The position numbers and the translations under genes were made by a program. Below, one piece after another: positions 1-48,000 of a stretch of DNA of 64,000 bases. The notes below the pieces were generated by a model. The model worked only from the letters and a program-made list of their open reading frames with translations, made no database searches and was not told the origin of the DNA. Location: the NCBI GenBank assembly GCA_030141605.1, contig JAQGDQ010000691.1, positions 18,881-82,880 of the forward strand. The letters are read 5' to 3'. Source of the stretch: Tubiluchus corallicola. Its lineage: Eukaryota; Priapulida; Priapulimorpha; Priapulimorphida; Tubiluchidae. Position 1 is the first letter of the stretch; the number at the start of each line of letters is the position of its first letter.

Positions 1-60
1 ATGTGAACAGAGCTGCAATGAAAGACACGACCCCTGATAAGGGTCTACAGCAGACCTTCC

Positions 61-684
61 CTTTTTATAAGCTCAGGTGTGCACGTGACTAGTGGCTTTT
101 ACTAACACAAGGTCAGAATATGAGTCTGTGCTAGATAAAGCCACGTTCACATGCACACCCGAGAAGTCTACTGTATTCCCCTGCCAGCATTACATTTCAT
201 TTCACCACAGCCCTGTAATACAATATTTTAGGAAAACTCAATAAGATAAGATTTGGATGAAATGAAAAATTCGTGTCGTACATTAAGAGTGATAAATCAA
301 TAATTAAATTCAACAAGAGGCATATTCACCGTTTTGTCAGATTAAAAACGTACGTCAAAATCAACGATACAATAAAGATATAAATTTTAATGCTCTCATT
401 GATATCGATGTTTTTAATTTGCACCAGATTTTCCCAGAACCAAAGTTTGTTCCATTTTGTCTCATGTACAGTTTGCAAACTTTAGGATGAAATACATTAA
501 GCTTTTCAAGTAACAGGTAGTAGCGTTTCCTAAAGAATATGGTGCTGTGCAAGTTCAAAAAAATATTCTTCAGTATGAAACGTCTTTTTTAGGATATAAA
601 ATACAATAAGCTTTTTCATGGTAACATTGTGCACAGTTGCTGTAGGTCAGAGGTTAAGTGTGCCACAGCAACGCACCTGAACTA
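61..684. other. Outer arm sequence, possible LTR-like edge
   Basis: On the minus strand, bases 75 down to 1 read CTTATAAAAAGGG followed by a GC-richer leader, mirrored at 45055-45126. In the right-hand version the run continues to AATAAATTG near 45200. A TATA box, leader and poly(A) signal in about 150 bp would suit a solo LTR, but I found no TG...CA ends with a target duplication. The rest of the stretch is AT-rich with only short random frames. Confidence 0.25.
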
Positions 685-45000: not shown

Positions 45001-48000
45001 GACTCATATTCTGACCTTGTGTTAGTAAAAGCCACTAGTCACGTGCACACCTGAGCTTATAAAAAGGGAAGGTCTGCTGTAGACCCTTATCAGGGGTCGT
45101 GTCTTTCATTGCAGCTCTGTTCACATTTCACAGGCTTTGCCACAAACTCCGTTCTTCTAGGTAAACTGTTTGTTCCTTATTGGTGGTGTAATATGTAGTA
45201 ATAAATTGTCATTTCGACTCTATTATTCGGGTTCTGTTTGGGTTTGGTGTTGAAGGACTTACTTGGGACATGCCGCACAGTGTGGTGCCATCTGTCCTGC
45301 CTCCATTAAAAGCGGAGAGCAGTCCAATATCCTACACTACCGCTTATGTTCTAACAATATCATGCTCCAAAAATACAGCAGCCCGCCCACTGACACTACT
45401 GCTCTACCACATTTGTGCAAGAAGATTATTTTGTGTAAAAACTGCGTCACAGTAACAGCAAAAACGCGTTCAGTTATTTTAAATCTAGTTTATTACCTTA
45501 ACTAATAAACCTTTGGAGTCGACCATCCAAATCTTCTTAATGGCCTCCTCGTTTGGGGTCCCCTCTTCTTCCATGGCGAGCATAATTAGCTTAGCGATAC
45601 CTAAATTAGCCTGAATAAACGAGGACAAAATTTTAGTCATAACCAAAAAAAAATGTGGAGTACCGTATTTTCCCATGTATAAGAGACCCTTTTTTGCTCA
45701 GAATTTTCACTTTAAAAATAGGTGCTCTACAACTGTTTTATTTCGAATAATTATAGTTTCCTTTCAATAAATCTTCTCCATGGCTAAATTCTAATGATAA
45801 AATTAATGTACCGGGTAAGTTATTATTTTTTTAAATGTCTCTTTGGTATTGGAGAGAAATCGATTGTTCTGCAGCCAATCAACGCATCTGCATAAGCTCT
45901 CTGCATGCCCGTCGACGTCATTGATACGTCGGCAGAGGTCAACGAGATGAGTCAGCCTAAGCAAGGCGTGTCGCGTTCGACTATGAAGCGGTTGTAAGCA
46001 ATACAAGCATCGTGACACAGGTCTGACTCCAGTTGATATTTTTGATGAGAGTGATGAGGAATTTAATGATTTCTATGATGAATAAAGTTATTCATTACCA
46101 AAAAACTTTTTTCCAGAATTTTTGCCTAAAAATTGAAAGGGTCTCTTATACATGGGAAAATACGGTATATCACATAGGACCTGGTCTTTTCACACAAATC
46201 AATAACTACGTTAAAATTTTCATAGGAAAATTAGTCCCCAAAAATAGACAAAAATAGATATTTTACTTGAATAGTATAAAGGTTACTAAATTCTTTTTAA
46301 ATTAAAACAATTCCTAAACAGATTGTTCTCATAAATCTAACGATATTAACAAAAGAATCGTCACTGTTACAAGCATTGATATTTATCGTATTTTTAACAA
46401 GCTTTGTCCTAAAAACTATGTACTTAATTTGCAGTTTTTATTTTTTGTCACAGCAATGTTCATGGTTTCACAAACAATAATGAATCGCTCTAAAAGATGT
46501 GAGATATAAGATCTATTTATTTCGCACAATAGAACAGCAAGGCTAACAATACTTAAACTTAAATGGGTAAAAAAGGGAAGGCCGTGTATAAGAAACGACA
46601 TTCTAAGGAAAAACAGTACCTAACATTAGCTAATAGTGATCTAAGTTATGAAATGCGGAAAGGAAACTGAAAGGAAGAATGATTTACAACAAAGAAAAAT
46701 TGATGAGGTAACTCGTTGCACATTCAAAGAAAGCAGAGAGGAGATCAACACAATGGACAAATAAATAAGGATTTATTCACGTGGGATTCTAAGGTTCTAT
46801 GAAGTTCTTCTAACTTGCGATGAAATATCTGTGTTCCTTAAAAGTACTTCAAGAGAACTTACTTCACCGGCACCTTGAAACAGGAAAGTGTTGTCAGCAA
46901 GTTTTGAATTCGTAATGCGAAGACTAGCTAGAACTCCTGCCAATGCAACTGATGCAGTTCCTGAAATTGATGGTTACATGGTCATAGAAGCGATAAGTTG
47001 TAGCACGAGCAATGGCGTTTGAAACAACAATCATTCGTTAATTAAAACTATGATGTTTCAAAGAATAACCTGCTTCATCTGAGTGAATAATAAATTATAA
47101 TCCAACACAGAGTTCTTTTGAAGAGCATGTAAACAAGTGAGCATGCGTTAAAACTACTAAACAAAAAATTAAGAAGTTTCGTTGCCTTATTTAAGTTGCC
47201 TTCCCACACAAACTTATATGACTTTACATTACGCTTACCTGTTTGAGAGACTTCTGTAATTAGAAAAGAAATTATTTAGTAATTTAAGATGTTTGCACCA
47301 CCTGCACTGCATCGGTATCCCAGCGTGCACCACTGATTCACTAAATAACACATTATTGTTCTTATTGGCAATATAACGTCATTTCAACTTGTGATTAGCT
47401 AGCGAAGAGTATGCTCTGATTATATTTTCAAATTTTTACGCTAAGTTACCTAAATTTATTCCAAACGACTCTCAAAATGGCTGCATCTATCGGTTCACGT
47501 GGGGGTGTTTACATTTATAAGTTTTACACAGCGTTACTGCCAATGCAACCCCTGCACGCAATAAGACAACACACATTGAAGACAAATTTTTTAAGCGTTG
47601 TTTATGAAGTGATTCTTGTGTTTTAAGCAGAACTCGCTTACAAAAAGTCACGAGTTATGAGACAATTAGCAAGTAAATGGGGGTTAGAACCTGAACAGAG
47701 TTTTTTGACCAAATTTCTTGATTATATTACTAATTAATTATGACTTATGATTATGAATTATTAATTATTGTCGAAATTTTTATAAACCATAACGGTTTAT
47801 TTTACGAATTATTACCCACTGCAGGTAATGAGTTAGAGAAAGCAAACACTGAAAAACTGTGGACTAGTCGGGATCTGAACCCGAGACCTGGGATTATGAG
47901 TGAGATGCTGGACTGGTAGCTTAAGTGGTAGAGCGTGGAAGCATTAATCCCAGGTTTCGGGTTCGAATCCCGACTATTCCAGAGTTTTTCAGTGTCTCGT

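Follow-up and report, generated by a model that had tools for sequence, protein, structure and literature searches.

A mirrored contig of Tubiluchus corallicola carrying a malic-enzyme gene in each arm is probably one assembled sequence written on both strands around a fold-back join

The window, the whole stretch of DNA that was analysed, comprises 64,000 nucleotides and corresponds to C2174:18881-82880; it was searched against an assembly of 343.5 Mb in 2,344 contigs. Two inverted copies of one long sequence (arms A and A') face each other across a short spacer, and each arm carries a malic-enzyme gene together with many tandem repeats. The features are given below in window coordinates, followed by strand.

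1..21807, +: left arm A, an arm of 40,687 bp of which the inner 21.8 kb fall in the window and the rest reaches out to contig base 1
21808..23311, +: spacer of 1,504 bp, also present in C2067, where it comes after matching inner-arm sequence and leads into another flank, B
23312..64000, -: right arm A', the mirror of C2174:40687-1, which stops at an N gap after window base 64000
23300..23320, +: fold-back junction (23311/23312), with ~6 bp (AGGGAA) common to the C2067 continuation and the arm
2900..6327, +: malic-enzyme gene, left-arm copy, of which the last three exon blocks were found here and the rest lies outside the window at C2174:9080-18507
38799..54921, -: malic-enzyme gene, right-arm copy, at least 8 exon blocks
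17962..20598, +: tandem duplication of 1,312 bp in the left arm, single in C2067 (self-match and comparison with C2067)
24521..27157, -: right-arm copy of the 1,312-bp tandem duplication (self-match)
21708..22148, +: dispersed repeat with many copies at 85-89%, lying across the border between left arm and spacer
62779..64000, +: 28-bp minisatellite of 43.6 units, the stopping point of both contig ends

BLASTN comparison of the window with itself paired 1-21807 with 45126-23312 in a single uninterrupted inverted match of 99.606% identity over 21,822 columns, with 64 mismatches and 7 gap openings, far beyond chance. This bears out the first-pass annotation, which had described inverted copies of ~21.8 kb around a 1.5-kb unique spacer, and the spacer limits are exact. 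However, position 45126, where it had placed the outer border, merely pairs with base 1 of the window: the left arm is cut by the window start, the right arm extends right through to base 64000, and the window holds no such pair of outer borders as had been proposed for a check. At the scaffold level, the inverted match runs from C2174:1-40687 against 82880-42192 (99.555% over 40,710 columns), and the whole gapless contig, C2174:1-82880, consists of A, the spacer and A' (40,689 bp). The mirrored sequence is thus truly in the assembly, at about double the length first reported, and it makes up the entire first contig of the C2174 scaffold, as is expected of a mirrored-contig artefact.

The malic-enzyme exon blocks are open in both arms, and the assembly search found intron-split malic-enzyme exons only in these two arms. 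Elsewhere in the assembly, C1761 gave a match over the full length of the domain, and C279, C128 and C1997 gave matches in long open frames. The latter matches (C279:107215-107787, C1997:7442-8026 and C128:17742-18320) lie in uninterrupted frames of 464-774 aa, and together with a secD-like fragment at C1331:3571-3700, read by eye only, they suggest that the assembly includes bacterial contigs. A search for COX1 gave no match. For the outer arm, C2174:1300-9500, no further copy was found in the assembly; the only other matches were weak and scattered or belonged to a short dispersed repeat.

Minisatellites are very dense at this locus, where 23 arrays occupy ~10.3 kb, a quarter of each arm. 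Unit numbers are equal between the arms in all 23, a count per arm that exceeds the eight arrays of the earlier description. A 32-bp array has 13.1 units in the arms versus 3.1 in C2067. Only the first ~103 bp of the dispersed repeat at 21708-22148 recur at the right junction. A tRNA-Asn-like gene with the anticodon ATT lies at 47909-47982 and, by symmetry, in both arms. The usual anticodon of tRNA-Asn is GTT, and this sequence may be a tRNA-derived repeat.

The two ends of the contig are mirror images of each other. Contig base 1 and base 82880 are mirror partners that lie inside one 28-bp minisatellite at the identical position in the repeat, and over their terminal 300 bases the two ends are exact reverse complements. 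A run of 3,361 N begins at base 82881, and the opposite contig end is the start of the scaffold; one outer flank is scaffolded beyond a gap, and the other side has none. The next contig beyond the window, C2174:86242-111659, begins with a tandem array of ~92 bp and contains long open frames that are rich in N-glycosylation-like motifs and include an internal repeated segment. The unit of the 28-bp array gave 43 matches per strand in the assembly search, all of them in C2174, and no other contig of the assembly carries it. Because the outer arm likewise has no other copy, no second outer flank is visible. To judge from assembly practice, two real arms that were assembled independently would not be expected to end at one base of one repeat unit, whereas a single piece used on both strands would. 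The same end symmetry also arises when a real palindrome is merged in the assembly graph, so the symmetry does not show the fold itself to be false. Since both ends stop at one base, which reuse of one assembled piece or graph merging would explain, the outer arm is left without independent support.

Alignment of the two arms at the scaffold level revealed 137 substitutions (97 transitions and 40 transversions) and 17 short indels, which are distributed very unevenly. The outermost 9,254 bp are identical between the arms, as are five further stretches of 2.4-3.6 kb each. Divergence is bimodal: it is ~4% in 21 islands, together 3.3 kb long, and ~0.02% in the remaining 37 kb with isolated changes counted, and there is almost nothing in between. 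The island value is also the level of divergence between arm A and C2067. All three inter-arm substitutions in the malic-enzyme exon blocks are synonymous. The transition excess and the synonymous coding changes indicate that the islands are real alternative sequence, and they rule out sequencing error as the cause of the differences. Dispersed repeats were also rejected as a general cause, as the high-copy repeats at C2174:8004-8391 and 22213-22723 show no differences. In the inner islands, the left arm, the right arm and C2067 are three distinct sequences, with private changes in each arm; C2067 was accordingly rejected as the island donor there, where neither arm equals it. Three sequences are beyond the supply of one diploid single-copy locus; they would be accounted for if DNA had been pooled, if C2067 were a paralog or if the second arm were real.

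C2067 provides a second arrangement of the same sequence. This contig opens at the end of a 58-bp array; the inner part of A and the spacer follow, ordered and oriented as in the left half of C2174. It differs from A by 4.0% in substitutions and by many indels, carries one copy of the 1.3-kb duplication rather than two, and after the spacer runs into B, which is single copy. C2067 may be an allele or a paralog of the C2174 region. Because C2067 has the order inner A, spacer, B, a comparison of the two sequences suggests that the left arm and spacer are likely the older arrangement and that the junction between spacer and A' is the derived break. The junction is base-precise, without a gap, and the joined points lie 1.5 kb apart. 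Two simple origins were rejected: a perfect hairpin from a missed sequencing adapter, since a unique spacer is present, and a mis-join through a long inverted repeat, since the corresponding place in C2067 has no second inner-arm copy and the shared bases number only ~6. No contig of the assembly joins the C2174 version of the spacer to B.

Taken together, these results make it probable that the C2174 contig is one assembly-graph path written on both strands around a single fold-back join, with A assembled once. This interpretation is favoured by the identical outer 9,254 bp, the equal arrays, the ends at the same base, the bimodal islands and the order of inner A, spacer and B in C2067. From the geometry, the end symmetry, the bimodal differences, the microhomology and the second arrangement in C2067, all read directly from the assembly, we infer how one join could have grown into an 82.9-kb mirrored contig, where the patches came from and that the gene is single. 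A molecule or read containing inner A, the 1.5-kb spacer and a turn-round at the ~6-bp microhomology back into inner A would have entered the assembly. Both sides would then have been extended with identical reads until A became unextendable in the 28-bp minisatellite, which would place both ends at one base, and the consensus of each arm would have taken up short patches of other haplotypes, seen as the 4% islands. The join may have come from a chimeric molecule or from a real fold-back, and the arm length is unproven in both cases. In the genome itself, the order is most likely outer flank, A, spacer and B, with one malic-enzyme gene, and the length of the mirror cannot be taken as evidence for a genuine giant palindrome. 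An assembly origin had been suspected in the first-pass annotation; our analysis supports that suspicion by a different route, one path on both strands rather than two haplotypes. Against an artefact, the join has only ~6 bp of shared sequence, so that some molecule must have carried it; also against it, no contig links the C2174 version of the spacer to B, and the islands are real sequence, distinct three ways.

These same observations bear on a real, very young inverted duplication, an option already raised in the first-pass annotation and one that we keep as a rival, though an unlikely one and not the best explanation. Microhomology-mediated template switching or fold-back repair would have copied at least 40 kb including the malic-enzyme gene, giving two convergent copies, and the islands would stem from later allelic conversion with other haplotypes. 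Such an event is consistent with a base-precise, gapless junction at ~6 bp of microhomology, with private changes in both arms relative to C2067 that are synonymous in exons, and with exon blocks open in both arms; the ~0.02% divergence outside the islands would mean a very recent origin. However, both arms stop at one base of one repeat, and the single scaffolded outer flank and the confinement of the end array to this contig leave the second arm without a demonstrated assembly of its own. The full version of this reading, in which C2174 is a true palindrome (arms of 40.7 kb or more, spacer of 1.5 kb) that arose by one recent microhomology fold-back, doubled the malic-enzyme gene as a convergent pair and carries patches from other haplotypes, is, if anything, slightly more doubtful. 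If the fold is real, a young gene duplication has been caught with its junction intact.

An old palindrome in which continuing gene conversion between the arms preserves their likeness, as in those of mammalian sex chromosomes, is highly improbable. The overall size and identity do resemble those of primate X palindromes (PMC8981503), and the divergent islands could be unconverted tracts; however, steady conversion at different times should leave graded, intermediate divergence, whereas the stretches here lie at either ~4% or ~0.02%, and all 23 arrays are equal. This bimodality disfavours the ongoing conversion that the first-pass annotation had considered. Least probable of all is its further option that the assembler joined two haplotypes of one locus head to head: the islands do lie at haplotype-level divergence, and a few sampled fragments with a single second copy at ~95-96% are consistent with retained alternative haplotypes, but about 92% of the arm length, arrays included, is identical or nearly so (~0.02%) rather than divergent throughout at the haplotype level, whereas C2067 shows 4% divergence and different array lengths.

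To return to the mirrored contig as an assembly product, a survey of its recurrence was made by searching fragments from ~32 scaffold starts against the assembly, and end-to-end base symmetry was demonstrated for none of the scaffolds sampled. Another contig, C866, came to light through a match from C2340; its length, 22,307 bp, agrees to the base with that expected of a complete mirror, given the positions of its 700-bp inverted pair (932-1631 and 20677-21376). The terminal 40 bp of C866 are exact reverse complements, the contig starts in a minisatellite, and its centre is non-palindromic, indicating that a spacer is present. C866 may be a mirrored contig or a large element bounded by terminal inverted repeats. 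As a second contig that is base-symmetric over its whole length, it counts in favour of the mirrored-contig explanation of C2174: it demonstrates that both ends of a contig in this assembly can stop at mirror-image bases, but it is no proof of artefact. The same 700 bp occur as an inverted pair at 100% near the start of C2340 (828-4700). A further inverted pair, 71 kb apart at 92%, was seen at C2100:4001-4700 and 74898-75607, with another 92% copy on C98. Mirrored contigs can be flagged from sequence alone by two properties: their two ends stop at one base, and their arms differ only in islands of haplotype-level divergence. Such contigs inflate gene counts twofold, here that of malic enzyme, and mimic the palindromes of sex chromosomes.

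Primate X palindromes have a median arm of 37 kb and 99.953% identity (PMC8981503). Like them, C2174 has arms of tens of kb at >99% identity, a unique spacer and a gene in each arm; unlike them, it has bimodal differences and arms that both end at one repeat base, with no second outer flank seen and no evidence of sex linkage. Chimeras produced by multiple displacement amplification (MDA) are mostly inverted, with segments <10 kb apart and priming at 2-21 complementary nt (PMC1855051), ranges within which the 1.5 kb and ~6 bp of C2174 fall. In one survey, fold-back reads accounted for 0.55-0.6% of ONT genomic reads, with next to none in PacBio HiFi data; an example given there has ~2 kb between its segments (PMC12870357). 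As in these inverted chimeras and fold-back reads, the second segment of C2174 is inverted, a short distance separates the joined points and a few bases are shared; unlike a chimeric read, its fold is embedded in an 82.9-kb contig and is known here from assembled sequence alone. The anatomy of the junction fits fold-back chimeras and, equally, an in-vivo fold-back inversion. Fold-back inversions and inverted duplications formed by microhomology-mediated template switching are known from work on cancer and yeast. Unlike those, the C2174 fold is a feature of an assembly and only a candidate for a rearrangement in the organism; like them, C2174 shows a short loop and a single derived junction at microhomology, and its left half keeps the probably older order found in C2067.
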